IMG/VR virus record: IMGVR_UViG_3300010297_000090
Location: 1 to 22,929 of that record
Strand: one strand, 5' to 3'
Length of the DNA stretch: 22,929 nucleotides
From: a virus
In this document: piece after piece, positions 308 through 21,700 of the stretch
Layout of the letters: the number at the start of each line of letters is the position of its first letter
Position numbering within the stretch: position 1 is the first letter of the stretch
The notes under the pieces: model-generated
Told to the model about the DNA's origin: nothing
The model's input: the letters and a program-made list of their open reading frames with translations, nothing else
Database searches by the model: none
Made by a program: the position numbers and the translations under genes

Positions 308-326
308 AAAATTCCGGAAAAAATTT

Positions 327-881: not shown

Positions 882-903
882 GAACTGAAGGATTTTTTTT
901 CTT

Positions 904-1737: not shown

Positions 1738-1743
1738 TCTTAA

Positions 1744-2021: not shown

Positions 2022-2026
2022 TTTAT

Positions 2027-2060
2027 AGAGTGCTTAAATAGAAATAAGCACTCTTTTTTT
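2027..2060 (+). terminator. Rho-independent terminator
   Basis: A perfect 10-bp stem (AGAGTGCTTA at 2027-2036 pairing with TAAGCACTCT at 2045-2054) with an 8-base loop leads into seven consecutive T (2054-2060). It begins five bases after the stop of the small basic gene and should end that transcript. The T-run ends on the base immediately before the ATG at 2061, so the terminator occupies the whole upstream region of the next gene. Confidence 0.93.
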
Positions 2061-2531: not shown

Positions 2532-2537
2532 AAAGTT

Positions 2538-2557
2538 CTGATTTTAATAATCAGGAG
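2538..2557 (+). promoter_or_regulatory. Ribosome binding site partly inside a small hairpin
   Basis: The good Shine-Dalgarno AGGAG (2553-2557), 6 bases before the ATG at 2564, begins inside the right arm of a 6-bp hairpin: CTGATT (2538-2543), loop TTAAT, AATCAG (2549-2554). The stem would hide the first two bases of the site and could modestly slow initiation. A second short hairpin (ACGGG/CCCGT, 2512-2529) lies just upstream without a T-run, so it is not a terminator for this strand. Confidence 0.4.
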
Positions 2558-2563
2558 CTAAAA

Positions 2564-2821
2564 ATGACCAAAAAAGTAGACAAAGATCAAAATTTTATGA
2601 AAAATGAGTGGGGAACTCAATATTTGTCAAGTGAATATGGTTGGGATAATCAAATCTCCAAGCAAAAAATGCTTAGGGAAATTTCGAATGATGATTTAAC
2701 ACCAAAAAAGCATGATTTTTACCATCAAAATGAAATTCATGAGAAAATTCGTAATGATGACGATTATGATGATTGGGAGTATGGCACAGAACCTCTCTAC
2801 GAATATAAAAAACTAAGATAA
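2564..2821 (+). CDS. Hypothetical acidic, charged protein (85 aa)
   Basis: The 85-aa product is hydrophilic and unusually rich in Asp, Glu, Lys and Asn, with an acidic cluster (RNDDDYDDWEYG) near residues 63-74 and no hydrophobic segment, so it is probably soluble and perhaps partly disordered. It has no motif I recognise. AGGAG at 2553-2557 fixes the start. It is the last gene before the baseplate block, and its TAA stop (2819-2821) is embedded in the late promoter of gp25. It could be a small structural or assembly protein because of this location, but nothing in the sequence proves that. Confidence 0.8.
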   Translation: MTKKVDKDQNFMKNEWGTQYLSSEYGWDNQISKQKMLREISNDDLTPKKHDFYHQNEIHEKIRNDDDYDDWEYGTEPLYEYKKLR

Positions 2822-2824
2822 ATA
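2817..2824 (+). promoter_or_regulatory. T4-type late promoter ahead of gp25
   Basis: GATAAATA at 2817-2824 matches seven of eight positions of the T4 late promoter octamer TATAAATA, recognised in T4 by gp55 (late sigma) with the gp45 sliding clamp. It lies 20 bases before the gp25 ATG and contains the stop codon of the upstream gene. A transcript starting roughly 5-7 bases downstream would have a leader of about 15 bases with no Shine-Dalgarno. The second copy before gp8 strengthens the call. Confidence 0.72.
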
Positions 2825-2844
2825 ATACAGTTTTTACACATTTT

Positions 2845-3246
2845 ATGCCTTTAGAGCGAGTCAGTAAAGGTTTTAAAGACCTAAGTATGACTTTTCAAGT
2901 CAATCCACTAAAATATGACTTAATTTCACTTAATAACGAAAGTGCAATTGCTCGCTCTATTCGCAATTTAGTACTTACGTATCCCGGAGAAAGATTTTTT
3001 GATGAAGATCTGGGATCTAGAGTAAGTCGATCTCTTTTTGAAAATATTGATGAAATAACAGCATCAATAGTTAAAGATGAAATTGAAAATACTATTCGAA
3101 ATTATGAACCAAGAGTAGATCTTATTGAAGTAAGAGTTTTTCCAAATTATAGTGAGGATGAGTTTAATGTAACTATAATTTACAATATAGTAGGGATTGA
3201 TGTTTTGCCCCAACAATTATCATTTGCACTTCAGCCAACAAGATAA
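2845..3246 (+). CDS. 25: Baseplate wedge subunit gp25
   Basis: This is the gp25-like (GPW/gp25 family) lysozyme-related fold protein that links baseplate wedges to the sheath and helps start sheath polymerisation. The length (133 aa) matches T4 gp25 (132 aa). Residues 46-66 (YPGERFFDEDLGSRVSRSLFE) and the conserved EPR core at E88-P89-R90 in NYEPRVDL are family hallmarks; the C-terminal half is the usual beta-strand pattern. The start has no Shine-Dalgarno but sits just downstream of a late promoter. The stop is directly followed by the gp6 start (TAAATG). In T4, genes 25 and 6 are separated; in marine T4-like phages they are adjacent, as here. Confidence 0.96.
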   Translation: MPLERVSKGFKDLSMTFQVNPLKYDLISLNNESAIARSIRNLVLTYPGERFFDEDLGSRVSRSLFENIDEITASIVKDEIENTIRNYEPRVDLIEVRVFPNYSEDEFNVTIIYNIVGIDVLPQQLSFALQPTR

Positions 3247-5154
3247 ATGGCATTAGTTAATTTTACAAATTTAGACTTCGATCAAATAAAAAGTTCTCTT
3301 CGTGAATACTTGAGAGCGAATTCAAATTTTACTGACTATGATTTTGCAGGATCAAATCTTTCATATATAATAGATCTTTTAGCATATAATACATATATTT
3401 CCTCATACAATGCTAATATGATTAGCAATGAGGTTTTTATTGATAGTGCTACTTTAAGAGAAAATGTAGTTTCTCTTGCGAGAAATATTGGATATGTTCC
3501 ACATTCTCGTTCTGCAGCAAAGGCAAATATATCTTTTTTTGTTGATACAACAGGATTTTCCACTAATCCAATTATACTAACGCTTAAAAATGGGGTACTT
3601 TGTACCACAAATACTACTTTTGGAAATCAAAGTTATTCTTTTATTATTCCGCAAGATATATCAACTCCAGTTGTAAATGGAATTGCACTATTTGAAAATA
3701 TAGACATTTATGAGGGAACATTTGTAACTAATAACTTTACGGTTGATGCGAATAACACTAATCAAAAATTTATTTTAAATAATGCAAATATTGATGTAGA
3801 TTCTATCAGAGTTTTTGTGAGAAATACACAATCAAGTACTGTAAAAAATACCTATAATCTTGCAAAAAATTTATTTGAAATTGATTCAGAATCTAAAGTT
3901 TTCTTTATACAGGAAATAGAAGATCAAAGATATGAGTTAATTTTTGGCGATGGGGTATTTGGAAAAAAACTAGAAAACTTAAATTATATCGAAGTTTCTT
4001 ATAATGTTACGAATGGAGAAAATGGAAATGGAATATCCTCATTTAATTTTAGCGGACGTATCATAGATGATCTTAACCGCGTTATAACCTCTGGAATATC
4101 CCTTATTACTACCAATTCTCCTTCGCAAAATGGTAGAGAAATAGAGTCGGTTGAATCCATTAAAAAATATGCACCTAGAAAATATGCATCACAAAACCGT
4201 GCCGTTACAGCAACAGATTATGAAACTATTGTACCAAAGATATATCCAGAAACAGAATCAGTATCTGTTTTTGGGGGAGAGGACTTAAACCCACCAAAAT
4301 ATGGAAGAGTTTTTATAAGCATTAAACCAATCAATGGTCCATTTGTTTCAAATCAAGTCAAAGAAAATATTAAAAGAGATTTAAGAAAATATTCTGTTGC
4401 TGGAATAGTTCCGGAAATTATAGATTTGAAATATCTTTACTTGGAAACAGATACTACAGCATATTATAATTCAAACACAACTTTAGATCCAAATTTTCTT
4501 AAAGATAAAATATTTAATAATATTAAAAATTACTCCAACTCTAAAGAATTAAATAAATATGGAGCAAGATTCAAGTATAGCAAGTATTTAAAAATAATTG
4601 ATGATTCTGATTCTTCTATTACATCAAATATTACTAAAGTTCAAATGAGACGTGACTTGGGAGTTCTATTAAATTCTTTTGCCGATTATGAAATTTGTTT
4701 TGGTAATGAATTTTACATAAAAAATTTAAATGGGTATAATGTAAAATCATCGGGGTTTAATATATCTGGATTAACTGATACTTTATACATTGGAGATATT
4801 CCAAGTTCTGATGGAATTAATGGTAATATTTTCTTTTTCAAGTTAGTAAATTCTCAACCAATAATTGCAAAAAGAAATGCTGGACAAATAAATTACTTAA
4901 AAGGTGAAATAAAATTATATCCGGTAAATATAAGTTCTACTAATAAAGTATTATTTGAGCAACCAATAATTGAAATTTCTGCTATCCCCAAATCAAATGA
5001 TGTAATCGGATTGCAGGATTTATATTTACAACTAGATATTAGTAGTATTAAATTAAATATGCTTTCGGATGTAATTTCTTCTGGTTCAGATGTATCTGGA
5101 TCTTCTTATAAATTTACATCAAGTTATATTAACGGAGACCTTGTAAGAATATAA
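3247..5154 (+). CDS. 6: Baseplate wedge protein gp6 (baseplate J-like)
   Basis: The 635-aa product is the T4 gp6 homologue (T4 gp6: 660 aa), which forms dimers that build the continuous inner ring of the baseplate and hold the wedges together. The N-terminal region (residues about 4-93) carries the typical pattern with LSYIIDLLAYNTYISSYNAN and LARNIGYVPHSRSAAKA. A baseplate-J core is seen around residues 225-370, including IFGDGVFGKKL and KKYAPRKYASQNRAVTATDY (306 onward), followed by KYGRVFISIKP. The C-terminal third is less conserved. The ATG begins on the base after the gp25 stop, with no separate Shine-Dalgarno, so translation is probably coupled. The giant gene follows 4 bases after the stop. 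Confidence 0.95.
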   Translation: MALVNFTNLDFDQIKSSLREYLRANSNFTDYDFAGSNLSYIIDLLAYNTYISSYNANMISNEVFIDSATLRENVVSLARNIGYVPHSRSAAKANISFFVDTTGFSTNPIILTLKNGVLCTTNTTFGNQSYSFIIPQDISTPVVNGIALFENIDIYEGTFVTNNFTVDANNTNQKFILNNANIDVDSIRVFVRNTQSSTVKNTYNLAKNLFEIDSESKVFFIQEIEDQRYELIFGDGVFGKKLENLNYIEVSYNVTNGENGNGISSFNFSGRIIDDLNRVITSGISLITTNSPSQNGREIESVESIKKYAPRKYASQNRAVTATDYETIVPKIYPETESVSVFGGEDLNPPKYGRVFISIKPINGPFVSNQVKENIKRDLRKYSVAGIVPEIIDLKYLYLETDTTAYYNSNTTLDPNFLKDKIFNNIKNYSNSKELNKYGARFKYSKYLKIIDDSDSSITSNITKVQMRRDLGVLLNSFADYEICFGNEFYIKNLNGYNVKSSGFNISGLTDTLYIGDIPSSDGINGNIFFFKLVNSQPIIAKRNAGQINYLKGEIKLYPVNISSTNKVLFEQPIIEISAIPKSNDVIGLQDLYLQLDISSIKLNMLSDVISSGSDVSGSSYKFTSSYINGDLVRI

Positions 5155-5158
5155 TAAA

Positions 5159-8100
5159 ATGAAAGAAACCAGAATCAAAATTAATTCAGTTATTGAAAAT
5201 CAACTTCCACAGTTTATTAGGGAAGAATTTCCTTTAGCATCTGAATTTTTATCACAATATTATACTTCTTTAGAAAATCAAGGTGGAACTATTGACATAC
5301 TTGAAAATATTGATCAATATATTAAAGTTGATAATCTAACAAATTTAATTGACTCAACGATTTTAAGTTCTGATTTAACTTTTTTTGATTCTACTATTAG
5401 AGTAGAATCAACTGCAGGATTTCCTGATAAATTTGGTTTACTTTTAATTGATTCTGAAATAATCACATATTCTTCAAAAACTTCAACGACATTTGAAGGT
5501 TGTGTTAGAGGATTTAGTGGAGTTACTTCATATAAAGAATTGGTATTTAATGAATCGGAATCTCAAGAACACAATTCTACAACAACCGTAGTAAATTTGA
5601 GTGTTCTTTTTCTAAAAGAATTTTTTATAAAAGTAAAAAAACAAATTACACCTGGACTTGAAAATAGACAACTATATTCTAATTTAAATGAAAGATTGTT
5701 TGCAAAGCAAGCAATAGATTTTTATTCATCTAAAGGAACTGACAATTCATTTAAAATTTTATTTTCTGCATTATATGGTGAGAAAGTTGATATAATTAGG
5801 CCTAGAGATTATTTAATCATTCCATCGGGTGCAGAATATAGAATTACATCAGATTTAGTTGTAGAAAAAATTGAAGGAGATCCTGAGCAATTTGTTAATG
5901 GAACTCTTTATCAATATACTGATTCGAATGAAAATTTAAACTTAGCACAGGGAACAATAACTAAAATCGAAAAAATCAAAAGAAATCTAAAAGAATATTA
6001 CATTATTAGTTTGGATTATGATTATGATAAGGATATCCAACCAAAAGGATCTACATATGGAGAATTTAAAATACATCCAAAAACAAAAACTTTAATAGAA
6101 ACAAAATCTGGGTCAACAACAATTGAAGTAGATTCTACTGTAGGTTTTCCAATTTTAAATGGTTTGGTTAATATTATTTTACCAAATGGGACCTCATTAA
6201 GTGTCGGTTATACATCAAAAACATTAAATCAATTTTTAGGTTGTACTCAAATTGATCAAAACATTCCCGAAGGAACTGAAGTTAAATATGACTATTTTAC
6301 ATATGCTTATTCAAATTTAGATGATGAAAAAATAAAAGTTAGAATTCTTGGTGTTTTATCTGACTTGGAAACAGAGTCATTAAATAATTTAGAATCATAT
6401 TTTTATTCTCCTGGAGATATTGTAAAAATAAAAAATCTTGGAAGTGATTCAAAAGATTATAAAGCAAATAATTGGTTCTTTAATATTCCGGTAAAGTATA
6501 ATGTCAGATCAATCAGACTTTTAGATAGTTCAGACAAATCTTATAGTATTGATTTAATTGAAAATCATTTTTTTAAAATAGGTGATATAATATCTTTAAT
6601 ATCTTCATCTGGTTTTGAGCAGCCTGGAAATGTTGTTTTTATTAATGATCAAAATTCTTTTACAATTCAATTTGGTTCAGAAGCACTCATATTAAAGGAA
6701 TCGGAAATCTATATTGCCAAAAAGAATATTAATAAAGTAATATCTAACAATTATCCATCAGTTAATAAGTATACATCGAATGTACAAAATGTTTATTTGG
6801 ATGATGATGGGTCAATATATGTTTCTTCGCCATCTCTTCCATCATATTTAAATATTCCATTAAATATCAATGATTACTCCATTCAATTTAGCGGTACTTT
6901 TAATGGTACAGTATTGAAAATTGGAAAACATGGATTTTATACGGGAGACTCTATAGTATATAAACCAACTCAGCAAAATTCATTAGGAATTTCTACGGGA
7001 GTTTATTTTATTAAAAAAGTTAGTGAAACTGAAGTAAAATTGGCAAGAAGTAGAAATAATATTTTTACAGAAAACTTTGTACAGGTAAATGGTTCTGTCA
7101 CTAATGCTAAGTTTGAACTTACCAATTTCACATTTAAAGATTTAAGCACGCAGTTACTAGAGTCCCAAAAAATAATTAGAAAAATTTCAGAACCAGAAAC
7201 TGATGGAAATTTATACGAAACAAAACCCGGGTTAATAGGAATTTTTGCAAATGGAGTTGAAATTCTTAACTACAAATCTAATGATAATATTTACTATGGA
7301 TCTATTGAAAATATTATCCCTACTGCATCAGGATCTGGATATGATATAATTAATCCTCCAGTATTATCAATATTCGATAAAAATGGTTCTGGAGCAAATG
7401 GTTATTGCTCAGTAATAGGAGGTCTTGAAAGAATTGATATTATAGATCCGGGATTTGATTACATTGAGGAACCAAAAATTGAAATTACCGGAGGAAATGG
7501 ATTTGGAGCATCAGCTAAAGTAAATCTAACTTCTTTTGATTATAATATTTCTTTTAACTCAATTAATTCTGCAGGATTAGTAAAATTAGATCCAATCAAT
7601 CAAATAGGATTTTCAAGTTATCATAAGTTTAGGAATACTGAAGAAGTTACTTATATAACAGATACTCAGACTGCAGTTGGCGGTTTATCAACAAACTCAA
7701 CTTATTTTGTTTCCGTTAAAGATGCATTTAATATAAATCTTCATAAATCTTTAGAGGATGCTGTTGTTGGAATAAACACAATTAAGTTAACTTCTTATGG
7801 TATAGGAAATCATTCTTTTAAATCTAAAAATAAAAAGAAAATAATTAGCTCAATTGTTGTCGAGTCACAGGGAAAAAACTATCAAAATAAATTAGTTACT
7901 ACCGGAGCAAGTGGAATTAATACTGCTTCAAATACAATCTCAATTAAAAATCATGGATACAATAGTGGAGAAATAGTTGTATATAACTCAACAAGCATTC
8001 CAATAGGAGGTCTATCCACTTCCCAATCGTATTATGTAACTAAAATTGATGATGATACTTTTAAATTATCACAATTGGGTATTGGAAGTTTTGGGGAAGA

Positions 8101-11100
8101 TGCTTCTTTTTACTATGATACTAAGAGATACGTTAATTTAACCACTAATGGTAGTGGAATCCACGAGTTCAATTATCCTAAAATTAAAGTAAATATTAAA
8201 GGTAGAACAGGAGTCTCAACACTTTCTGATCAAAATTTTGAGGCTTCAATTGTACCTATTTTTAGAGGAGGAATTCAATCTATATTTGTAAATAGCGGAG
8301 GTTCAAATTATGGATCTACCGAAATTATTAATTATAATGCTCAACCACAAATAAATCTAAATTCTGGATCAGGATGTCAATTAAAACCAATCATTTTAAA
8401 TGGACAGATCAAAGAAGTTTTAATATTAAATCCAGGAACAGGATTTAATTCACCACCAGATATTATAATTGATGGAATAGGAGTGGGTGCGGTATTAACT
8501 CCAATATTGTCAAATGGCACTTTGATTAGTGTTAAAGTGATTTATGGTGGATTTGGATATGATTCAAAAAATACATCGATCATAGTAGTCCCTGCAGGAT
8601 CTGGAGCAAAATTTGAAGTAAAAATTAAATCTTGGAAAATTAATCTAGTTGAAAGACTAATAAAAAGTGAAAAAATAAATGATGATGATGGCATTTTATT
8701 TGCCGGATTTAAAGATGTTTATGGACTTCAATATACACATGCATATGCCCCAAGAAATTTAAGATCTTCTGTACAAGCAACTACAATTGAAGATGGGAAC
8801 ATAAAATTTGTTTCAGATTTAAATATTTTAGATGGAAAGGAAGTAAACCCAGACTCTGATGCATCAGAGTCTGACCCAGACTCTGATGGTGGATCTAACG
8901 CTCACTCTCCAATTATTGGTTGGGCATATGATGGAAATCCAATTTACGGGCCCAATGGTTTTTCTTCAAAAAATGGTGGTAAAGTTATAACTTTAAAATC
9001 TGGTTATAAGTTAAGAACCGATTTAAATCTTCTGATTAATTCTAATCAAAGACCCAATTATCCAGATGGTTTTTTTATTGAAGATTATATTTATAGTGGA
9101 GATGGTGATTTAGATGAGCATAATGGAAGATTTTGCATAACTCCAGATTATCCTAATGGAATCTACGCATATTTTACAACAATTAACACAGAAAATGCTG
9201 AAGAATCGGGTTCATTTAAAAACTATAAAAAACCAATATTTCCATATGTAGTAGGAAAATCATATAAATCTAAACCAATTGAATTTAATTTTTCAATTGG
9301 ATCAAATCAAGATGATATTGATATAAACAAAACGAATTGGAAAAGAAATATTTCACCATACAATATTACTTCATATCAATATCTATTAAATCCTAATGAG
9401 ATAAATCAAAATACTTCTATAATAAAAAATAGTTCAAAAGGATCTATAAGTTCTATAAAAGTAGAAAGTAGTGGAGAAGACTATAAGATAGGAGATGAAT
9501 TAATTTTTGATGCTAAAACTGGATTTGGAGCGAAGGCAAAAATTTCTTCAATAAAAGGTAAAAAAGTTTCTCAAATTAAAGTTTCTACAACATCATTTGA
9601 TGATGTTATATTTTTTCCGTATAATAATAAATTTATTGGATTTACAACTATTCCACATGGTTACCTTAATAATGATCCGATAACATTTACAGGAAACTAT
9701 GATTACAAAAAATCAGGAAATATATTAGTAGAAAATAATAAATTAGTTTTATATGTTGGGGTTGGATCTGCACAATATACTGGAATTGTTACCTATTTTG
9801 ACGTATCTGGTAATTTAAATTATCCAAAAATTAGAGAAAATGATATTTATCAAATTGGAAATGAGCAGATTAAAATTTTAAGTATTGATAAAACATCATC
9901 AAGAATTAAAGTCCTTCGCAACCAAAATGAAACTATTGGTTTAACTTCTTATAGTGCTGGATTTGCACTTACAGAAAGACCTAGAAAATTAGAACTTAAT
10001 TTTGGTATTTCAACTTCATATAATTTTAATATCGATAGAGAATTTTATTTTGATCCTAAAGAATCAATTGGTTTAGGAACGATTTCTGGAGTTGGAATTG
10101 TTAGCACCATTTATTTTTCAAATCCTGGAGTTGGCGATACTCAACTTACAATTCCAACAAAGTCTATCTATATCAAAGATCATAATTTAATTACTGGAAA
10201 TTCTTTAACATATTCCTCAAATGGAGGAACTCAAATTTCAGTTTCAACCGATGGAACTTCTAGTTTCTCACTTTTAAATAATTCTATAGTTTATGTTAAA
10301 AAGATTTCTAATGATCTTATTGGAATATCAACTACTAGAATTGCATTAGAATCAACACTTCAAGATGATATTTTATATTTCAATTCTGTTGGTATAGGGG
10401 ATATTCATAGTTTTAAAACAAATTATGAAAATATTTTTTCAGGACAAATTACTAACAATAAAGTAATAGTTACTACAGAAGAATCTCACGAACTATCTTT
10501 GTTTGATAATATTGATATTGAAGTAAAACCTTCTATTTCGACTAGTTTTACAGTTAAATATAATGACTTTAACAGAAGATTAGTTATCAATCCAATAAGT
10601 TTTTCTTCAGTAAATACTGCAACAGGAACTATTACAATTGATAATCACAAATATAAAACAGGACAAAAAGTTATATATACAGCAGAAACTCCCTCGATTG
10701 GATTAGTTAATAATCAAATTTATTATGTTGTAGTAATAGATTCGAATAAAATTAGATTATCCGATAGTTACTATCAAGCAATAAAAAGTATCCCAGAAAC
10801 TATTAATATCACAACATCCGAGTCGGGAACTTTATCTTTGATTAATCCTCCATTAGATTTTATAAAAAATAGAACAATAGTATTTGATCTATCAGATTCT
10901 TCGTTAGCTTTTACAAAAAATAATGTAAAATATTCAGCATTTGACTTCAAGTTATATCGAGATAGTAAATTTATTGATGAATTTGATTCTACAAAATCAT
11001 CACAAATTTTTGAAGTAGAAAAAACAGGAAAAGTTGGAATTGATTCTACAGCAAATGTTACTATAAGATTAAATGATAAAATTGCAAATGAATTATTCTA

Positions 11101-14100
11101 TAATTTAGTACCTATTAATTTGGAACTAAACACAGATGTTAAAAAAGGCATTTTTATTGATAATGAAATTCCAGGATTTAATAAAATTTCATTAATTAAT
11201 AGTTCATATAATGGTAATTATTCTATTGTTGGAATCTCTTCAAATACTTTTGAGTTTAATATCTTAGATTTGCCCGAAGAAACTTCCTACGAAGAAGGTA
11301 TCGAATATACTATCAATAAATCATCAACTGCAAAGGGTGCCATTAGTAAAGTTTCTCTTTTAAGTGGAGGTAGAAATTATACATTATTACCATCTATTAG
11401 CGTAAAATCTGACTTTGGTAAAAAATCAATATTAAAACCGGAAACGAATAGTATTGGAAAAATTCTATCTACAGAAATATTAGATATTGGTTTTGATTAT
11501 CCAATAGACTATAGTGTTAGACCTACAGCAAAGTTGCCAACTATTTTAACATTAAAATCTTTAGCATCACTAGACTATATTGGAATTACATCTTTTGGAA
11601 AAAATTATATTTCCGAACCATCACTTTTAATTATTGATGGACTAACAAATGAGATAATTAATGATGTTGAATTATCTTACAATTTTGGAGATTCTAAAGT
11701 TAGTATAATTAAAAATAGTAGTTTAATTAATGATGTAACACCTAAAATTATACCAATAAATAACTCAAATGGATTTAAAATTGATAATATTACATTCAAT
11801 AATACATCTAAAGATGTAACAGTAACTTTGGGGTCAAGTTTTAGCGATCCTGGAGATTATCCATTTGAAGTTGGCAGCAAAGTATTGATCGAGGGGGTTA
11901 ATATAGGTGTAAATACAGAAAAAGGATATAACTCTAAAGATTATAATTATGAATTGTTTACTCTTACTGAAATTGATCCAAACATTGGAGGAACTATAGG
12001 AACTGTAACATTTAATCTTTCTTCTTATTTAAAAAATGAAGATGTTTTGGGAACTTTTGATAAGATAAGGTCCAATGCAAGAATAATACCAGAATCACAT
12101 TTTCCAATTTTCAATACTGTTTTAAAAACAAATAATTTTTATAAGGGAGAAGTGGTTACAAATTCTTTCTCATCGAATGGAAATGTTTTGAATTGGAATT
12201 CAAATAGTAGACAACTAAAGATTTCAACAACAGATGATTTCAATACAAGTGATATTATAGTAGGCAAAACTTCTGGATCTGCTGCTATTGTAGAGAAAGT
12301 ATTAGATTTTGAAACAAATTATAAAATAAGTGGGCAGTCTAATTCCAGAAAAGGTTGGAATACAGAAACTGGATTTTTAAATAATGATTTTCAAAGAGTT
12401 CATGATAGTGATTATTACCAATATTTTTCGTATGCAATAAAAACGAAAAAAGATTTTGATACTTGGAATGATGTTGTAAATAATTTAAATCATACAGCAG
12501 GTTTTAAAAAATTTGGAAATTTAATAGTAGAATCTGTCCCAGAAAATATTGGTATTTCCACAGAGCAAAATCAAGGAGATTTTAATCGCATCGCAAATTT
12601 ATCAAGATTTGTCGATTTAAATTGTGTTTATGATTTTGATCTTGCCAGCGAGAATAATATTAGCGTAGATGGGAAAATCGGATCAAGTGAAATCAAATTC
12701 AATTTTAGAATTATTCAAGATTATATAGAATCTATTGGAAATAGAGTTTTAAAAATTGATGATCTTTCAGAGCAATTTAATAGTAATCCAAGACCTACAA
12801 AATTCTCTATTGCAGATTCCTTTATCTTAAGTGAATATAGAACTATAAAGTATTTTACTATAATTGAAAATCAAAGATTTGAAAATATAAAACAATTTAG
12901 TTTAATATCACTTGTACATGATGATAATAGTATTGGATTTATTAATCAATATGGATTGTCTACTTATGAAGATTTAGGATTTTTTGATTTTAATGTTTCC
13001 GGAAATTTCGGCAATTTACTATTTTACCCAAATAAATCTAGGTTTGATGATTATTATTTACAATCAGTTTCTTTCTCTCTTAACGATATAGTGAGTGGGA
13101 TTGGATCGATCAATTTGGGAAACTCTGTAATTATTAATACAAATTCCATAATAATTCCTGAAGGTACTGAAAGTTCAACTACAATTGTTGGAATTGCCTC
13201 CACCTATAGATCTTCGAAAATTTTAGTTCAAATTGGATCTACAGATTTTTCTTATTATGAAACTAATGAAATTACAATTATAAATGATGGAAATAATGTT
13301 CATTTATTAGAATATGGACAGCTTACTACAAATAATTCGCTATCACAGGCATCATCTGGTATAGGAACATATAGTGCCTACTTAGATGGATCCCAAGTAA
13401 AGATTAATTTAAAACCAAATAATTCAACTACTATTGATTATGTTGTTAATACATTCAATGTTTCTTTAGCAAATACAATTTCTTCTGGAATTGGAACTGA
13501 AATTATAAGTGGAAGTGCAGTTTCTTCTTCATCTGTAGAAATTTCTTCAAGTATTTCTCCATCATCAAACGTCATAACTTCATATTCAAATAATTCATAT
13601 GATGGATCATATTTAATTGTTAGTATTGAAGATAAATCAAATTCACAATATCAAGCATCGGAATTTTTATCATTAACAAATCTTAGTGAAAATAAATGCT
13701 ATACAACAGAATTTGGAATTCTTCAAACAGGGAATAATCTTGGCATAATAACTGCCGGTATTTTTGGAACAGATACCGTAATTTATTTTACACCTAATCC
13801 AAATATTGAAGTTGATGTTAAAGTATTTTCTATTAGTTTGGGTTTAAAAAGTGATTCTGATCGAATTTCGCTGATAAATGGATTTATTGACTATGCTCAG
13901 TCCGTTTATACCGGAACAGATAACGATGTTAAAAAACAATTTGATTTGACTAGTGATAATTTCCCAATATTCCAGAGATATTTTGATGCAAGTGATTCAA
14001 ATATTGTGGATTTGGAAAATAATATTATTCGTATTCCAAATAATTTTTATGTTAGTGGAGAAGAAGTAATTTATTCTTATCCTGGAGTTGGAACTACACA

Positions 14101-17100
14101 AGCAATTGGCATAGCTACGACATCTATTTTGGGAATAGGAATAACGGATAAACTTCCACAATCCTTATATATTATAAAAGTGGATGATTCAAATATAAGG
14201 GTTGCATCTTCTGCATCTGAAGCACTTAAATCTATTCCAAATTTTATAAATTTATCATCTTTAGGAATTGGAAATTCTCATATATTTACATCAAAAAATC
14301 AAAACAAAAAAGTTATTATTGGGATTGATAATACAATTCAAAGTCCAATAGTATCATCTGCGGTTACTACAATTTTATCTTCCGATCTTCAATTTTTTGA
14401 CTTTGAAATTTATGTAGACAATACAGAATTTATATATGGAGGAGATTTAATTAAGATTGATGATGAAATTATGAAAGTAAATTCTGTAGGTCTTGGAAGC
14501 ACAAATTCTATAGGAGTATATAGGGGATGGTTAGGTACAGGAATATCTTCTCATTCTTCTTCGAGTTTAGTGACTAAAGTTTATGGTCAATACAATATTA
14601 TTGAGAATAAAATTTATTTTACCGAACCTCCTTTTGGAAAAGTTCCTTTTCCAAATCCATCATCTAGGTTTGATGAGATAGATTATATTGGAATTTCAAC
14701 AAGTTCTTCATTTAGTGGAAGAGTATTTTTAAGATCTGCGATCCCTGATAGTGTTGATGATCCTTATTCAAATAATTATATTTTTGACGATATTTCCCAC
14801 AATTTTAATGGAATTGATAAAAGTTTCGAATTAAAATCAAATGGGCTTAGTATATCAGGAATATCTACCGACAATTCAATTGTTCTAATTAATAATATCG
14901 CACAAAGTCCCAGCACAAGTCCACTACAAATTACAAATGATTATTATTTAGCCGAAAGTTCTGGAATTACTACAATAACATTTACAGGTGCAGGAGGAGC
15001 AATTACTTCAGATTATGATACTAATACATCAGGATTGCCTAGAGGTGGTATTATTATTTCTGTTGGATCTACCGAAGGATTTGGATATCAACCACTAATA
15101 TCGGCAGGAGGAACTGCTATTGTTTCTGTTGCGGGAACAATTGAGTCTATTAGTATAGGTAATAGTGGATCTGGATATAGATCGGGAATTCAATCTATAG
15201 TAAATGTTGGAGTCGCAACTTCAAGCACAGGTATTCCAAATATAGAATTTATTGGAACTGCTGCAGTAAGCAATGGAAATATTGTAAGCGTATCAATAAC
15301 AAATCCTGGTTCCGGATATACATCATCAAACCCACCCGTTGTATTTTTTGATGATCCATTATCATATTCAAATATTCCATTAGTTTATAGTTCTCAGTCA
15401 GTTTCTGGTATTGGAACTAATGCAAGCATAGATGTTGTTGTTGGACAAGGATCTAGTATAATTTCATTTGAATTGAAAAATCTTGGTTATGGGTATAAGG
15501 TTGGTGAAATATTGACTTTACCGATCGGAGGAACTATGGGAATTGCTACCGATAGTTCATCAACTTTTTCAGAATTTCAAATTACAATTGATAGGACATA
15601 TTCGGATCAATTTGCATCTTGGACTATTGGTTCTCTTAAGATTATTGACCCTATAGATCCATTATTTGATGGCGTCAGAACAACTTTCCCAATCAATATT
15701 AACGGAAATCAAGTAACAATTAGATCTAGACCAGGATCAAATATAAAAGTTAAAAATACATTACTCATTTTTATTAATAATGTTTTACAAGTCCCGGATA
15801 TTGCATATATTTTTAATGGGGGAAGTATTATAAGATTTACGGAACCTCCAAAAGAGGGAGATTTGTGCAAAATTATGTTTTATGCTGGAACTGAAGGTAT
15901 AGATACACAAATTTCTGATATTCTAGAAACGGTTAAAGTAGGAGATAAACTAACATTATTGGATGATAAAATAGAATTTACAGAAGAAAATAGATCTTCT
16001 ATAGAAATAATTTCTTCAGATATTGTAAATACGAATGTTTATCTTGGTCCAGGGATAGTTGGAGATGAAAGTTTGTTGAGACCTTTAATATGGTGTAGAC
16101 AAACTGAGGATTTAGTTATAAATGGACAACAAATAGGAAAAGATAGAACAATTTATGAACCTTATATTCAACCAAGCACAAATATTATACAAAATATCAA
16201 TATAGAATCTGATGAAATTTTTGTCGAAAGTGTTAAAGCATTTTTTGACAGCGAAAAGGAATATTTTCATAATGGAACTATGGAATTGCCGCAGAATAAA
16301 ATTTTAATAATTTCTCAAGATTCAATAGTTTCTGCATCTGCAACAGCACTTGTATCATCTTCAGGTACAATTTCATCCATAATCATTTCCGATGGAGGTA
16401 TGGGGTACTCCATATCCCCTACCGTCTCTATTGCAGCGCCGGTTGGATTTGGAACAACCGCAGTACAAAATACTGCAATATCAACAGCGATTATTTCCGA
16501 TGGAGTGGTAACTGGTATTTCAGTAACATTTGGTGGATCTGGATATCTTCAATCTCAACCACCTTCCGTTTTAATCGAATCTCCAACAATAACTTATGAA
16601 TCTATAGATCTTGTTTCATATGAGGGAGATTTTGGGATTATTACTGGCGTTCAAACTACTTCCATTGGTATTGCCTCTACGGGAATTATATTTGACTTTT
16701 TCATTCCAAATGATTCAATATTAAGAAATTCTGATATAGTAAAAGTTGGAAGTGCTACTACTGGAATTAGTGGAATTCAAACTGGTTATTATTTTACCAT
16801 TAAAAATTCAAATATTGGCAATGGTCTTACCTCTTTGGATTTTGATAATAATATTGTTGGGATTGGGACATCTTTTATGGATAATATTTACCATGTATCT
16901 GCAGTTTCAATTGCACAAACTGCAGTTTCTGGAGTGGGGATTACTAATGTGGCTAAAGTGACTATAAGCGTGGCAGACTATAATGAACTAACTGGTATTG
17001 GATTTAGCGGTTTTTATGGGGAATATAGTTGGGGTAGAATTTCTGTTCCAATTAGACCCAATCCACAACAATTTAATACATATGCAAATATAGGAGGTAT

Positions 17101-17161
17101 TTCATCCTCTCCCATTGTTCAAAGATTTAATCGCTTAAAATATTTAAACTATAATACATAA
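5159..17161 (+). CDS. Giant modular tail/baseplate protein (4000 aa) with YHYH domain
   Basis: One uninterrupted 4000-codon frame encodes a virion structural protein in the position of T4 gene 7 (between 6 and 8; T4 gp7 is 1032 aa). The N-terminus (IKINSVIENQLPQFIREEFP) looks like the conserved anchor of marine-phage wedge proteins, sometimes labelled VrlC-like. Beyond it are repeated beta-rich modules: GFPxxxGxxxI-type (from about residue 80 and again near 325), HGF/NHGY-x-x-G-x-x-V-Y units near H591, H932, H1675 and H1830, and GSGY/GxGY units from about G725 to residue 3830. A YHYH domain spans about 1245-1345 (GWAYDGNPIYG at 1254-1264; DLDEHNGRFCITPDYPNG from 1317), preceded by an acidic Asp/Ser linker (1230-1246). 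A YYQYFSY motif lies near 2419-2425. INNV-type strands occur near 3240 and 3535, and the last 64 residues (GEYSWGRI) form a distinct C-terminal unit. No signal peptide or transmembrane helix. The start lacks a good ribosome binding site. Direct homology to gp7 is not shown; the position and N-terminus support a wedge or tail role. Confidence 0.9.
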   Translation: MKETRIKINSVIENQLPQFIREEFPLASEFLSQYYTSLENQGGTIDILENIDQYIKVDNLTNLIDSTILSSDLTFFDSTIRVESTAGFPDKFGLLLIDSEIITYSSKTSTTFEGCVRGFSGVTSYKELVFNESESQEHNSTTTVVNLSVLFLKEFFIKVKKQITPGLENRQLYSNLNERLFAKQAIDFYSSKGTDNSFKILFSALYGEKVDIIRPRDYLIIPSGAEYRITSDLVVEKIEGDPEQFVNGTLYQYTDSNENLNLAQGTITKIEKIKRNLKEYYIISLDYDYDKDIQPKGSTYGEFKIHPKTKTLIETKSGSTTIEVDSTVGFPILNGLVNIILPNGTSLSVGYTSKTLNQFLGCTQIDQNIPEGTEVKYDYFTYAYSNLDDEKIKVRILGVLSDLETESLNNLESYFYSPGDIVKIKNLGSDSKDYKANNWFFNIPVKYNVRSIRLLDSSDKSYSIDLIENHFFKIGDIISLISSSGFEQPGNVVFINDQNSFTIQFGSEALILKESEIYIAKKNINKVISNNYPSVNKYTSNVQNVYLDDDGSIYVSSPSLPSYLNIPLNINDYSIQFSGTFNGTVLKIGKHGFYTGDSIVYKPTQQNSLGISTGVYFIKKVSETEVKLARSRNNIFTENFVQVNGSVTNAKFELTNFTFKDLSTQLLESQKIIRKISEPETDGNLYETKPGLIGIFANGVEILNYKSNDNIYYGSIENIIPTASGSGYDIINPPVLSIFDKNGSGANGYCSVIGGLERIDIIDPGFDYIEEPKIEITGGNGFGASAKVNLTSFDYNISFNSINSAGLVKLDPINQIGFSSYHKFRNTEEVTYITDTQTAVGGLSTNSTYFVSVKDAFNINLHKSLEDAVVGINTIKLTSYGIGNHSFKSKNKKKIISSIVVESQGKNYQNKLVTTGASGINTASNTISIKNHGYNSGEIVVYNSTSIPIGGLSTSQSYYVTKIDDDTFKLSQLGIGSFGEDASFYYDTKRYVNLTTNGSGIHEFNYPKIKVNIKGRTGVSTLSDQNFEASIVPIFRGGIQSIFVNSGGSNYGSTEIINYNAQPQINLNSGSGCQLKPIILNGQIKEVLILNPGTGFNSPPDIIIDGIGVGAVLTPILSNGTLISVKVIYGGFGYDSKNTSIIVVPAGSGAKFEVKIKSWKINLVERLIKSEKINDDDGILFAGFKDVYGLQYTHAYAPRNLRSSVQATTIEDGNIKFVSDLNILDGKEVNPDSDASESDPDSDGGSNAHSPIIGWAYDGNPIYGPNGFSSKNGGKVITLKSGYKLRTDLNLLINSNQRPNYPDGFFIEDYIYSGDGDLDEHNGRFCITPDYPNGIYAYFTTINTENAEESGSFKNYKKPIFPYVVGKSYKSKPIEFNFSIGSNQDDIDINKTNWKRNISPYNITSYQYLLNPNEINQNTSIIKNSSKGSISSIKVESSGEDYKIGDELIFDAKTGFGAKAKISSIKGKKVSQIKVSTTSFDDVIFFPYNNKFIGFTTIPHGYLNNDPITFTGNYDYKKSGNILVENNKLVLYVGVGSAQYTGIVTYFDVSGNLNYPKIRENDIYQIGNEQIKILSIDKTSSRIKVLRNQNETIGLTSYSAGFALTERPRKLELNFGISTSYNFNIDREFYFDPKESIGLGTISGVGIVSTIYFSNPGVGDTQLTIPTKSIYIKDHNLITGNSLTYSSNGGTQISVSTDGTSSFSLLNNSIVYVKKISNDLIGISTTRIALESTLQDDILYFNSVGIGDIHSFKTNYENIFSGQITNNKVIVTTEESHELSLFDNIDIEVKPSISTSFTVKYNDFNRRLVINPISFSSVNTATGTITIDNHKYKTGQKVIYTAETPSIGLVNNQIYYVVVIDSNKIRLSDSYYQAIKSIPETINITTSESGTLSLINPPLDFIKNRTIVFDLSDSSLAFTKNNVKYSAFDFKLYRDSKFIDEFDSTKSSQIFEVEKTGKVGIDSTANVTIRLNDKIANELFYNLVPINLELNTDVKKGIFIDNEIPGFNKISLINSSYNGNYSIVGISSNTFEFNILDLPEETSYEEGIEYTINKSSTAKGAISKVSLLSGGRNYTLLPSISVKSDFGKKSILKPETNSIGKILSTEILDIGFDYPIDYSVRPTAKLPTILTLKSLASLDYIGITSFGKNYISEPSLLIIDGLTNEIINDVELSYNFGDSKVSIIKNSSLINDVTPKIIPINNSNGFKIDNITFNNTSKDVTVTLGSSFSDPGDYPFEVGSKVLIEGVNIGVNTEKGYNSKDYNYELFTLTEIDPNIGGTIGTVTFNLSSYLKNEDVLGTFDKIRSNARIIPESHFPIFNTVLKTNNFYKGEVVTNSFSSNGNVLNWNSNSRQLKISTTDDFNTSDIIVGKTSGSAAIVEKVLDFETNYKISGQSNSRKGWNTETGFLNNDFQRVHDSDYYQYFSYAIKTKKDFDTWNDVVNNLNHTAGFKKFGNLIVESVPENIGISTEQNQGDFNRIANLSRFVDLNCVYDFDLASENNISVDGKIGSSEIKFNFRIIQDYIESIGNRVLKIDDLSEQFNSNPRPTKFSIADSFILSEYRTIKYFTIIENQRFENIKQFSLISLVHDDNSIGFINQYGLSTYEDLGFFDFNVSGNFGNLLFYPNKSRFDDYYLQSVSFSLNDIVSGIGSINLGNSVIINTNSIIIPEGTESSTTIVGIASTYRSSKILVQIGSTDFSYYETNEITIINDGNNVHLLEYGQLTTNNSLSQASSGIGTYSAYLDGSQVKINLKPNNSTTIDYVVNTFNVSLANTISSGIGTEIISGSAVSSSSVEISSSISPSSNVITSYSNNSYDGSYLIVSIEDKSNSQYQASEFLSLTNLSENKCYTTEFGILQTGNNLGIITAGIFGTDTVIYFTPNPNIEVDVKVFSISLGLKSDSDRISLINGFIDYAQSVYTGTDNDVKKQFDLTSDNFPIFQRYFDASDSNIVDLENNIIRIPNNFYVSGEEVIYSYPGVGTTQAIGIATTSILGIGITDKLPQSLYIIKVDDSNIRVASSASEALKSIPNFINLSSLGIGNSHIFTSKNQNKKVIIGIDNTIQSPIVSSAVTTILSSDLQFFDFEIYVDNTEFIYGGDLIKIDDEIMKVNSVGLGSTNSIGVYRGWLGTGISSHSSSSLVTKVYGQYNIIENKIYFTEPPFGKVPFPNPSSRFDEIDYIGISTSSSFSGRVFLRSAIPDSVDDPYSNNYIFDDISHNFNGIDKSFELKSNGLSISGISTDNSIVLINNIAQSPSTSPLQITNDYYLAESSGITTITFTGAGGAITSDYDTNTSGLPRGGIIISVGSTEGFGYQPLISAGGTAIVSVAGTIESISIGNSGSGYRSGIQSIVNVGVATSSTGIPNIEFIGTAAVSNGNIVSVSITNPGSGYTSSNPPVVFFDDPLSYSNIPLVYSSQSVSGIGTNASIDVVVGQGSSIISFELKNLGYGYKVGEILTLPIGGTMGIATDSSSTFSEFQITIDRTYSDQFASWTIGSLKIIDPIDPLFDGVRTTFPININGNQVTIRSRPGSNIKVKNTLLIFINNVLQVPDIAYIFNGGSIIRFTEPPKEGDLCKIMFYAGTEGIDTQISDILETVKVGDKLTLLDDKIEFTEENRSSIEIISSDIVNTNVYLGPGIVGDESLLRPLIWCRQTEDLVINGQQIGKDRTIYEPYIQPSTNIIQNINIESDEIFVESVKAFFDSEKEYFHNGTMELPQNKILIISQDSIVSASATALVSSSGTISSIIISDGGMGYSISPTVSIAAPVGFGTTAVQNTAISTAIISDGVVTGISVTFGGSGYLQSQPPSVLIESPTITYESIDLVSYEGDFGIITGVQTTSIGIASTGIIFDFFIPNDSILRNSDIVKVGSATTGISGIQTGYYFTIKNSNIGNGLTSLDFDNNIVGIGTSFMDNIYHVSAVSIAQTAVSGVGITNVAKVTISVADYNELTGIGFSGFYGEYSWGRISVPIRPNPQQFNTYANIGGISSSPIVQRFNRLKYLNYNT
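8847..8888. repeat. 24-bp perfect palindrome and 15-bp direct repeat inside the giant gene
   Basis: Positions 8850-8873 are a perfect 24-bp palindrome (half-site CAGACTCTGATG). A 15-bp sequence, ACCCAGACTCTGATG, occurs at 8847-8861 and again at 8874-8888, so the block is one copy, its inverse, then a second direct copy. It is visibly richer in G+C than the flanks and encodes the acidic linker NPDSDASESDPDSDGG (residues 1230-1245) right before the YHYH domain. The pattern is typical of local duplication by hairpin or template switching. Confidence 0.9.
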
Positions 17162-17180: not shown

Positions 17181-18728
17181 ATGTCTGCAATTATAACTGA
17201 TCAATTAAGAATATTGAATGCAAAGAACTTTGTTGCTGCCGCAACTTCTTCTTCAAACTCTTATTATTCTTTCGTTGGTTTAACTAATGCAACCGATTAC
17301 TTATCTTCTTGGGAAGTAAATCCACCATCACCCAAGGATTCATTTGAGCAAGAAAATGATTACTGGGATACTATGGTTGCTTTGAAAAAAATTAAAGAAA
17401 GTGATGTAAATCAAGTTATTCGAAAAAATACTTGGTCTTCTGGCACAACTTATGATATGTATCGCCATGATATTAGTAGAACAAATACTTCTACCTTAGG
17501 ATCGACAAGTTTATATTCTTCAAATTACTACGTAATTAATAGTGACTATAGGGTTTATATTTGTCTTCAAAATGGAACTGATCCAGAAAATCCCGCAGGA
17601 AAACCATCATTGGATGAACCAACCTTCACTGATTTAGAACCAAAATCTGCTGGATCGAGTGGTGATGGATATATTTGGAAATATCTTTATACAATTAAAC
17701 CAAGTGAAATTATAAAATTCGATACGGTTAATTTTATACCAGTACCAAAAGATTGGCAAAATTCTTCCGAAAGTTTAGCAATAAGATCAAATTCCGCTAT
17801 AAAAAACAATCAACTTAAAATAATAACAATCACAAATCGCGGAGAAAATTTAGGGCAACCAAATAAAATATATACAAATGTTCCAATTAAAGGAGATGGT
17901 AATGGTGCAAAGGCAACAATTGTGGTTAATAATGATTCCAAAGTAGAATCTATTACAGTTTCCATAGGTGGATCTGGATATACTTACGGAACTGTAGATT
18001 TAATAGGAGGAAATGTACCGACTGGAAGTACATCTCCGACTTTTGATGTTATCATTCCACCAAAAGGAGGACATGGGGCAGATATTTATAGAGAACTTGG
18101 AGCTTATAATGTTTTAATTTTTTCTAGAATTGAAAATGATTTAGAAAATCCAGATTTTATTACTGGTAATAAAGTTGCTAGAGTTGGAATCATAGAAAAC
18201 CCAGAAGCATACAATTCAACATCACTACTTGATATTGATAAAGTTAGTGCAGTATATGCATTAAAACTTTCCGGAAATGATTACCAAACTACATCATTTA
18301 TTCCAAATTCTAGATTTACTCAAACAATAGGGACCGGAATTACTGCAGTTGGTAGAGTTATTTCTTATGATCAAAAAACTGGTGTTTTAAAGTATTGGCA
18401 GGATAAATCTCTTGTTGGATTTAATACCAATGGATCTCCAAATCCATCTCCAACTTATGGAATAGAACTACAAAGATTTACTAGTTCGGTGGGGATTGGT
18501 GGAACTGTATTTATTGATAATACAAATTTATATATCGATACTGACTTTACGGGCATAACTACTACAATAAATAATAGAACATATAATCTTGGACAATATT
18601 TTATTAATGGTGTATCAAATCCTGAAGTCAAAAAATACTCAGGAAATATCATTTATGTAGATAATAGACCATCTATTACTAGATCTCCGAATCAAAAAGA
18701 AGATATTAAAGTTATTTTGCAATTCTAA
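17181..18728 (+). CDS. 8: Baseplate wedge protein gp8
   Basis: This is the T4 gp8 homologue, a dimeric wedge component that contacts gp6, gp7 and gp10. The N-terminal part shows the family pattern (PPSPKDS, then YWDTMVALKKI, then VIRKNTW), the middle has DGYIWKYLYTIKPSE from residue 162, as in T4 DGYVWEYLFEIPP, and the last 29 residues (SGNIIYVDNRPSI...EDIKVILQF) align closely with the T4 C-terminus (SGEMIYMENRPPI...EEINILFTF). At 515 aa it is much longer than T4 gp8 (334 aa). Part of the extra length is a glycine-rich GGSGYTYG unit at residues 263-270, of the same type found repeatedly in the giant neighbour. It is expressed from its own late promoter; the next gene starts 6 bases after the stop. 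Confidence 0.95.
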   Translation: MSAIITDQLRILNAKNFVAAATSSSNSYYSFVGLTNATDYLSSWEVNPPSPKDSFEQENDYWDTMVALKKIKESDVNQVIRKNTWSSGTTYDMYRHDISRTNTSTLGSTSLYSSNYYVINSDYRVYICLQNGTDPENPAGKPSLDEPTFTDLEPKSAGSSGDGYIWKYLYTIKPSEIIKFDTVNFIPVPKDWQNSSESLAIRSNSAIKNNQLKIITITNRGENLGQPNKIYTNVPIKGDGNGAKATIVVNNDSKVESITVSIGGSGYTYGTVDLIGGNVPTGSTSPTFDVIIPPKGGHGADIYRELGAYNVLIFSRIENDLENPDFITGNKVARVGIIENPEAYNSTSLLDIDKVSAVYALKLSGNDYQTTSFIPNSRFTQTIGTGITAVGRVISYDQKTGVLKYWQDKSLVGFNTNGSPNPSPTYGIELQRFTSSVGIGGTVFIDNTNLYIDTDFTGITTTINNRTYNLGQYFINGVSNPEVKKYSGNIIYVDNRPSITRSPNQKEDIKVILQF

Positions 18729-18734: not shown

Positions 18735-21700
18735 ATGCCACAGGAAACTAATCTCAACGTCTCTCCATATTTTGACAATTTTGACCCGCAAAAAGACTAT
18801 TATAAAGTTTTATTTAAACCTGGATATCCAATACAAGCAAGAGAATTGAACACTATTCAATCAATTCTTCAAAATCAAATTGAAAGATTTGGAACTAATA
18901 TTTTCAAAGAAGGATCAGTTGTAATTCCGGGACAACTAAAATACGATTCTCCCCTCTATGCTGTTCAAATCGAATCTCAATATAATGGGATTCCAATTTC
19001 ACTATATTTTGATCAATTATTAGGTAAAAAAATTAGGGGTCAAAACAGCAACGTAACTGCTGAAGTGGTATATCTTTTGAGAGATACAGAATCTGAAAGG
19101 AATAATTATACTCTTTATATTAAGTATCTTCAAAGTGGTGGTGAGGATTTTGATATAAAGATTTTTAGAGATGGAGAAACTCTTTTACTAGAAAATGCTT
19201 TAACATATAAAGGATTAACAATACAATCCGGACAAGGATTTGCAAATACACTTTCTCAGAATGCAACAGCAGAAGGTTCTTCGGTTTCTGTAGCTCCTGG
19301 CATTTATTTTGTAAGGGGAATTTTTGCAAGTGTTAGCGAACAAGTGATTTTATTAGATCAATATGGCATAAATCCTTCATATAAAGTTGGATTTGAAGTC
19401 GTAGAAACTATTGTTAATTCGGACCAAGATGAAACACTTTTCGATAATGCTCAAGGATTTTTAAATTACTCAGCTCCCGGAGCAGATCGATTAAAATTAG
19501 AGTTGTTTCTCTCAAAGAGAGAAATTGATGATAACGATACAGATTCTTTTGTCGAAATTTTAAGAGTTAAGGGAGGAATTCCTCAGTTTTTTGAGGTAAA
19601 TCCTCAATATAATATTTTAAGAGATCAACTAGCAAGAAGAACTTTTGATGAATCGGGAGATTATTATGTAAAACCATTTACTCTATTTGTAAGAGATTCT
19701 TTGAATGATAGAACTCTATCGGATGGAATGTTTTTTGAGAATCAAAGAACAGCACAAGGAAATACTCCATCAGAAGATTTAATGGTTTATGAGATTGGAC
19801 CGGGGAAAGCATATGTGCAGGGGTATGATGTAGAAACTATTGCAGCTACTTTATTGGATGTTCCGAAAGCAAGAACTACCAAAAAATCAGATACCCAATC
19901 TTTATCATATGACTCCGGTTCTTTGTGTGTAGTTAATAATGTTTATGGATCAGCAACTCCAGGACTGGGAACGGATTCTGTTGTTAGTCTGATGGATTCT
20001 AGAGTTGGTTCCGTCCCATATGTTGCTGCCGGCACTACGATTGGATACGCAAGAGTTTATGATTTTGTCCCAGAGACTAGTTATATTGATTATACAAGTA
20101 GATTTGAACTAAGATTATTTGATATTCAAACATACACAACTATAGGATTAACAACTTCATTTACGGATACACTATCTACCCCTGCGTTCGTCGAAGGAAA
20201 GAGAAGCAATGCCTCGGGTTATCTTGTATCAGATACTGCTGCGGGAGTAGACTCTTTAACATTATATCAAGTTAGTGGAAAATTCTTAGAAAATGAACCA
20301 ATATCGATAAATGGAATTGATGATTCCAGATTAATTAATTCGGTAACAGATTATTCAATAAGAGATATTAAGTCGATATATTCTCAAACTGGAATATCTA
20401 CATTTAATGCAGACTTGTTACTAAGTAGAAAATCTTATATTGCAAGTCCAGGAACTACGTTCAATATAACTGCTTCTAGTGGAGGAATTAGTACAGTTTC
20501 TGCAGGATTGGAAAAGAATTTTGTAAAATTAATAAAACCTGGAGACATTATTTCATATTCTTCAATTGGAAGTGACCCAATCTACAATAAAGTAACCAAT
20601 GTGAGTCTTGGTGGAACTTATTTTGAAATTCAGGGGATTACTCCAGTAACTGGAGTTTGTAATGGTGCTTTATCGGATAATGAACAAAATATAACAAATA
20701 TTTTTAAAATTGAATCTAATATTTCTGGAACTAAGTCTTTAATGACTTTACTTGGTGATAAAAATATTGCTACGTTAGATTTTGCGGAGAACGAAGTAGT
20801 TCAAAGAAGATCGTTTAGTGATTCTTTTTCCAATAATACCGTTTCAGTTACGATTCCGACGGAAGACATTGATATTTTCTTTGAATCTTTTGATGAAGAT
20901 CGATATGTTCTTTCATACCCAGATGGAACTTACGAATCTTTAAGACGTGACCAATTCTTATTATCCACTACAGGAAAAACAATAACACTTTCAAATCTTT
21001 CAAAAAGTTCTGGAAATTATGAACTTATTGCAACTGTAAAAAATATCGGAGCAAGTTCAAAATCTAAGAAATTTAACAAAACCTCTTCGGTTGTAATTTC
21101 CAACTCAAAACTTACATCATCGGGAATTGGAACTACAACTCTTAATGACGGACTTACTTATAGCAAAATCTATGGAACAAGAGTTCAAGATAAACAAATA
21201 AGTCTTGGTGTGCCGGATGTTGCTAGATTTTTGGCTATTTTTGAATCTGAAGATATTTCCGATCCTGTTCTTCCAACTTTAACACTAAGCGGTTTTAGTG
21301 GACCCTCAAACAGTAACGTAGATTTTGTTGTTGGGGAGCAGATTAAGGGTCAGTCCTCTGGTGCTGTTGCTATAATAGTCAATAAAAAAGATTCAAACAA
21401 GTTAGAATACGTCAATCTAAACACCTTTAAATTCAGCATTGGAGAAGTCATTGTTGGTGATGAATCATCTATTCAAGCCATAGTTTCTTCAAAACTAAGG
21501 GGAAGTAAAAATGTTTCAAATAACTATTCATTAGATGACGGACAAAGATCAACATATTACGACTATTCCAGAATTGTAAGAAAAAGAAACGTAGCAGAAC
21601 CAAAAGGTAAACTTAGAGTTATATTTCAAAATTACACCATTGATCCTTCGGATACTGGAGAATTTATAACAGTTAACAGTTATAACCAAGAAAACTTTAA

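Follow-up and report, generated by a model that had tools for sequence, protein, structure and literature searches.

Among the closest described systems is gp7 of T4 (phrog_964; PDB 5hx2, 5iv5; 9f4a), which is present in six copies and contacts gp10, gp8, gp9 and gp6 (PMC3004832). The T4 gp7 orthologue of XM1, gp17, has only 242 aa; it shares a core bundle with two copies of gp16, and binds the tail spikes via an internal loop and its C-terminus (PMC10457771). XM1 gp17 is a wedge arm, and the segments that bind the receptor-binding spikes lie outside its resolved core. Marine T4-like phages rank with the most abundant of known viruses. Their baseplates are described as being without gp7: according to one published account, cyano- and pelagimyophages have no gp7, and VrlC is its substitute (PMC7029224). 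Cyanomyoviruses have also been reported to be without g10, g11 and g12 (PMC2984593). The described members of family phrog_2885, including P-TIM68 gp086 (4,307 aa), S-SCSM1_15 (4,120 aa) and the pair gp257+258 of phage B23, are found in the slot between gp6 and gp8 in cyanophages.

The window analysed here is the whole of a 22,929-base virus record (29% GC). On its + strand, the genes for gp25, gp6, a 4,000-aa protein, gp8 and a VrlC/DUF4815 protein follow one another in that order (Table 1), placing the 4,000-aa gene between gp6 and gp8, where T4 gp7 is also located. The gp8 protein has 515 aa, compared with 334 in T4. Upstream of the wedge genes are a mannose-6-phosphate isomerase/cupin-like gene (327-665, PF01050) and a gene whose phrog_1574 product weakly matches glycosyltransferases (904-1737).

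Table 1. Positions of the baseplate genes in the window and of the parts assigned within the 4,000-aa protein
Feature	Position	Strand	Basis or remark
gp25 (wedge)	2845..3246	+	PF04965
gp6 (wedge; expected partner of gp7 core)	3247..5154	+	PF21379/phrog_219
4,000-aa gp7-family baseplate wedge gene	5159..17161	+	one ORF; phrog_2885 match; colinear homologues
First half of gp7 core, part a (aa 1-60)	5159..5338	+	'LPxFIxxxxPLxxxFLxxYY' segment
Insertion site 1 (aa 61-148)	5339..5602	+	one TILSS repeat, aa 67-121
First half of gp7 core, part b (aa 149-226)	5603..5836	+	'FYSSKGTDNSFKILFSALYGEKVDIIRPRDYLIIPSG' motif = T4 gp7 724-770
Insertion site 2 (aa 227-2404, 2,178 aa)	5837..12370	+	interrupts gp7 core
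6 HGD repeats, span	6917..14206	+	iterated HMMs
10 GxGY repeats, span	7268..16588	+	iterated HMMs
YHYH module (aa 1030-1490), inside site 2	8246..9628	+	GxGY repeat pair plus YHYH-like domain
YHYH-like domain (aa 1246-1344)	8894..9190	+	PF14240, 79.6 bits, cut-off 25
Second half of gp7 core (aa 2405-2461)	12371..12541	+	'DSDYYQYFSYAIKTKKDFDTWNDVVNNLNHTAGF' = T4 gp7 849-892
C-terminal extension (aa 2462-4000, 1,539 aa)	12542..17158	+	from aa ~2928 separate gene in B23
gp8 (wedge)	17181..18728	+	PF09215/phrog_438; one GxGY repeat, aa 237-283
VrlC / DUF4815 protein	18735..22928	+	runs off contig

The 4,000-aa gene belongs to a family that is already known and annotated. An hmmscan search matches its product to phrog_2885, 'baseplate wedge subunit', with E=0 (aa 2-3358 on positions 6-3359 of the 4179-position profile), and comparison with the cyanophage members named above reveals no essential difference: the slot, full-length colinearity (37-46% identity), the YHYH domain, the repeats and a similar length are all shared. 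The YHYH domain (PF14240) is the sole Pfam domain in the protein, and an NCBIfam search gave no match. When the first 600 aa were used in a tblastn search, 484 phage records were matched, mostly Synechococcus and Prochlorococcus phages. In annotated records, the slot protein has 3,032 aa in S-CAM1, 3,048 (+175) in S-PM2, 2,845+1,081 in B23, 4,120 in S-SCSM1, 4,225 in ACG-2014f, 4,307 in P-TIM68, 4,314 in S-CAM7, 4,458 in MED4-213, 4,749 in S-T4, 5,195 in P-SSM2, 6,076 in Syn9, 6,619 in S-SZBM1 and 7,312 in P-SSM4. The preliminary description correctly put the protein at about four times the length of T4 gp7 (1032 aa), but 4,000 aa is an ordinary length for this group, in which the slot holds 3,032-7,312 aa in isolated cyanophages, and the size is no surprise. 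Individual copies have already been annotated as 'T4-like gp7' or 'baseplate wedge initiator' (B23, ACG-2014f), and bare equivalence to gp7 is therefore not new.

The single frame of about 12 kb noted earlier is intact, with an ATG start, a TAA stop and a predicted product of 438 kDa. At the given base composition, the chance of an open frame of 4,000 codons is minute (log10 P about -157), and each of the other five frames contains 193-528 stops across the same interval. Phage B23, in which the equivalent protein is made by two overlapping genes (L004:16004-27783) split at ~2905/2928 in the numbering of the 4,000-aa protein, raises the question of whether the assembly has wrongly joined or fused separate genes. 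However, the two B23 genes overlap at ATGA, as is typical of real adjacent genes, and the GC content of third codon positions is low and uniform along the whole 4,000-aa gene (0.10-0.16), as in one real gene. The phrog_2885 profile also spans most of the frame. Above all, isolate genomes carry full-length colinear homologues of 4,120-5,195 aa, and many metagenomic contigs are colinear as well; the S-SCSM1 protein (1-4108) aligns end to end with residues 1-3989 at 39% identity, and the P-TIM68 homologue aligns over aa 1-3885. This colinearity reduces the likelihood of a false join to practically nothing.

The relationship to gp7, which the preliminary description drew from gene order, was examined with several sequence searches. 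A single-sequence phmmer search with aa 1-290 matched T4-family gp7 proteins (best E 1.5e-7), with all matches falling on one motif, FYSSKGTDNSFKILFSALYGEKVDI in the 4,000-aa protein and FYSTKGIEASYKFLFKVLYNEEVEI in T4. Profile-profile comparison with hhalign placed aa 180-283 on T4 gp7 726-811 (96.7%, score 84, E 3.4e-10), and a second region, aa ~2359-2451, on T4 gp7 818-890 (73%, score 45). As controls, 30 column-shuffled profiles and the T4 gp6, gp8, gp9 and gp10 proteins were used; the best shuffled profile scored 25 against the 84 of the first region and 31 against the 45 of the second, and the four T4 proteins scored at most 18.3. Taken alone, the match of the second half to T4 gp7 is modest, and its assignment leans on colinearity and on the compact homologues described below.

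A profile of the core, built from 61 sequences and fragments with a compact homologue placed first, was then compared with 177,635 distinct PDB sequences. Apart from two T4-like gp7 proteins (E 1.5e-11 and 8.3e-11), nothing was matched with an E better than 0.42, and the T4 alignment covers gp7 647-892, through both halves. XM1 gp17 is not among the matches of this profile to PDB sequences. A phmmer search of the PDB sequences with the complete 4,000-aa protein gave no match. Conversely, an HMM built only from T4-family gp7 641-1032 matches the 4,000-aa protein (E 9.7e-8). The same HMM matches 27 further slot proteins at E below 1e-3; a few of these are near-duplicates, and several are matched in two colinear pieces. 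An HMM of T4 gp7 1-640 has no match in the 4,000-aa protein or in any giant, and none better than E 0.1 among the slot proteins. A fold search with an AlphaFold2 model of a compact homologue returned T4-like gp7 chains (9f4a, 5iv5) as top matches; since this model is weak (pLDDT 58, TM ~0.29), the result only corroborates the assignment. These searches agree, and the gp7 identity of the conserved core is well supported by them; the predicted equivalence to gp7 now has a basis in sequence beyond gene order.

The conserved core amounts to about 195 residues and is present in three pieces (Table 1). The counterpart of the first piece is helical in the compact-homologue model. Both core halves are colinear with T4 gp7, where the same order is seen (646-759, then 849-892). 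However, the two halves are 90 aa apart in T4 gp7 and about 2,178 aa apart in the 4,000-aa protein; the C-terminal extension that follows the core is 1,539 aa long, versus about 140 aa in T4 gp7; and the 640-aa N-terminal part of T4 gp7 is absent. Searches of the open-access literature turned up no description of gp7 as split or giant, and a gp7 core cut in two within a giant slot protein is apparently unreported in the literature searched.

The same core is found in slot proteins of very different sizes. Compact metagenomic forms of 291-314 aa (L188, L192, L193 and L197) have just 13 aa between the halves, and L188 and L192 (291-295 aa) share the core with the 4,000-aa protein but differ in this tiny insert and a short C-terminus. 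The Mendera type (503-542 aa) has an insert of 257-265 aa, or about 260 versus 2,178, and HTVC008M (1,016 aa) one of 520 versus 2,178; both share the core and have a short C-terminus. The insert measures 388 aa in Melnitz, 523-614 in proteins of 818-847 aa, 1,330 in L200, 1,584 in S-PM2 and 2,719-2,810 in Syn9, S-SZBM1 and P-SSM4, and site 1 is also larger by about 500 aa in these last three. Slot proteins of 500-1,500 aa bridge the compact forms and the giants. The gene order around the 4,000-aa gene recurs for L188, L174, Mendera and HTVC008M.

When compact and long homologues were aligned with plain MAFFT, the second half of the core was misplaced; alignment of the halves as fragments placed it correctly. 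In a core tree (187 columns, 26 sequences), proteins of at least 2,845 aa cluster together (support 73), and HTVC008M and Melnitz (896-1,016 aa) are sister to these giants (support of the joint group 82). The 4,000-aa protein is placed beside B23, with a support below 70 for the pair. The simplest reading is that a small wedge protein was enlarged stepwise at fixed sites, a direction that we infer; loss from a large ancestor is also compatible with the core tree.

These observations bear on the published view that VrlC has taken the place of gp7. In L188, the order is identical (gp25-gp6-x-gp8-VrlC), with the compact gp7-slot gene accompanied by a VrlC-type gene, and VrlC is therefore not in gp7's place. 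The occurrence of the gp7 core next to VrlC in the window, in pelagiphage HTVC008M and in the compact form argues against an absence of gp7, and the published view of marine T4-like phages without gp7 looks wrong. This view is related to a different reading of the giant, in which the protein serves mainly as a fibre or adhesin without relation to gp7, and gp7 itself was lost and replaced by VrlC. The reported absence of T4 gp7 and the proposed substitution (PMC7029224) would fit such a protein, as would the annotation of the Syn9 copy as 'putative fiber' and the large part of the sequence that lies outside the core, much of it repeats. Against this, both core halves are present, only T4-like gp7 is matched in the PDB, and the 291-aa compact homologues are little more than the gp7 core. 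The fibre reading is already largely refuted, and we regard it as highly improbable.

Homologues of the 4,000-aa protein have been detected in virions. In CsCl-purified particles of S-SZBM1, S-SZBM1_208 (6,619 aa) was detected as one entry with 71 peptides and 13.5% coverage (PMC9146016). This protein is a verified homologue with a split core, and its gene adjoins gp6 and gp25, so a protein of the gp6-gp8 slot is present in purified particles. In S-CREM2, ORF122 (1,937 aa from its coordinates) was found with 91 unique peptides and is listed between two baseplate wedge proteins (PMC10665884). S-PM2d081, the slot gene of S-PM2 (3,048 aa), is among the ORFs with early non-synonymous mutations during host-phage coexistence (PMC9910659); these mutations are one among many virion changes, and contact with the host is not proven by them.

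It could also be imagined that the giant is synthesised as a single polypeptide and then cleaved to give several proteins of the virion. In B23, a separate gene encodes the C-terminal ~1,080 aa, and this two-gene encoding indicates that they are able to exist as a separate chain. However, neither a protease nor a cleavage signal came to light, and the S-SZBM1 homologue is a single proteomics entry, although bottom-up data of this kind would also be compatible with cleavage. Processing of the chain is accordingly considered improbable, and a single polypeptide is preferred.

A self-BLAST of the 4,000-aa protein found no internal repeats, but iterated HMMs detected three repeat families: GxGY (10 copies), HGD (6) and TILSS (3). 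All three types are found in both the site-2 insert and the C-terminal extension, and TILSS also in site 1. The GxGY repeats occupy aa 704-745, 742-783, 1065-1110, 1106-1149, 1417-1457, 2043-2088, 3314-3352, 3363-3401, 3724-3765 and 3771-3810, and the HGD repeats aa 587-629, 820-862, 927-971, 1670-1724, 1825-1868 and 2957-3016. The compact fold of GxGY is matched repeatedly in BFVD. GxGY repeats, which form part of the insert of the 4,000-aa protein, are also found between the halves of the Mendera protein (3 copies) and reach 22 copies in P-SSM4 and Syn9; none were found in T4 gp7. The single copy in gp8 makes this a second wedge protein entered by the repeat. The label 'head closure Hc2' is attached to the gp7-slot protein of HTVC008M (YP_007517921.1, L102:33435-36485) and to phrog_460 and phrog_3465; it has probably spread via the GxGY repeats common to gp7-slot and gp8 proteins.

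The YHYH-like domain is kept across the giants. The PF14240 match covers only positions 90-184 of the 193-position profile, and the domain's motif reads YAYF, so that neither the eponymous YHYH nor the predicted metal-binding His triad is retained; in a 50-sequence alignment of the domain, one His is invariant and one more nearly so. Cellular relatives are proteins of 412-454 aa from Bacteroidota, Planctomycetota and Acidobacteria, mostly at 40-48% identity. A phage-specific change from YHYH to YAYF was considered and rejected, as YAYF is likewise the motif in most of the close bacterial relatives (9 of the 11 cellular relatives aligned). Because phages and bacteria have both the domain and its YAYF motif in common, the domain is either shared or borrowed. 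MAGs named Planctomycetaceae, Euryarchaeota and Woesearchaeota (L206, L207 and L208) also contain sequences closely related to the YHYH region of the giant, in a 1,852-aa open frame in the case of L206; these are probably phage contigs binned into cellular genomes. In P-SSM4, a second baseplate gene, PSSM4_082 (L098:23246-27577; 1,443 aa), adjoins gp8 and encodes a YAYY-type YHYH domain with 7 GxGY repeats, which indicates that modules move between baseplate genes.

A model of the YHYH module has a pLDDT of 69 overall, with about 90 over the GxGY pair and 80-90 over much of the YHYH part. It matches many phage proteins in BFVD (YHYH, baseplate and the Mendera slot protein), but has no counterpart among solved structures (best E 2.0). 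YHYH domains have been predicted to be metal-dependent hydrolases on the basis of the His triad (PMC7824862), and the insert might thus be chiefly enzymatic, with this domain opening the cell envelope. A PF14240 score far over the cut-off, conservation in the giants and the existence of related proteins in three bacterial groups could be taken in this sense. The triad is not present, however, there being one invariant and one nearly invariant His; the domain makes up about 100 of 4,000 residues; and it matches no solved structure. A mainly enzymatic role is unlikely.

We therefore favor, as the likely explanation, a gp7-family wedge protein from a marine T4-like phage belonging to the cyanophage group, in which the split core assembles the wedge with gp6 and the inserts form peripheral and host-contact parts. 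In this reading, everything outside the core was added at site 1, at site 2 and at the C-terminus. By analogy with T4 and XM1, the two core halves would fold together as in T4 gp7, and the core would join the gp6 dimer, nucleating each of six wedges. The site-2 insert and the C-terminal extension would reach outward and make up most of the baseplate periphery, where they may offer docking sites for fibres or contact the cell surface. XM1 gp17, which is tied to the 4,000-aa protein through T4 gp7 alone, offers a possible analogy between its spike-binding loop and site 2. The projecting parts may replace the N-terminal part of T4 gp7, and perhaps the absent gp10-gp12. If the copy number of T4 is assumed, six copies of the 438-kDa protein would amount to about 2.6 MDa, versus 0.7 MDa for T4 gp7. 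The earlier suggestion that the protein forms an extended periphery and so substitutes for several T4 proteins is plausible in view of the missing counterpart of T4 gp7 1-640 and the reported lack of g10-g12, whereas the fibre-like skirt proposed with it gained no direct support.

The location of the split gp7 core provides a defined start for building or fitting a model of the cyanophage baseplate, and corrects annotations, including 'head closure Hc2'. Growth of a baseplate by insertion into a wedge protein becomes testable, and natural slot proteins ranging from 291 to 7,312 aa are already available for comparison. We tentatively raise the broader possibility, which is less probable than the assignment of the protein itself, that the periphery of the Kyanoviridae baseplate is built largely by one polypeptide per wedge, in which a loop in a ~200-residue core has grown by stepwise insertion. 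If so, core assembly and peripheral or host-contact functions would be covalently one in the Kyanoviridae; one giant polypeptide would stand in for the separate N-terminal part of T4 gp7, gp10, gp11 and gp12; and repeats and borrowed domains would have brought a loop of the gp7 core to thousands of residues.
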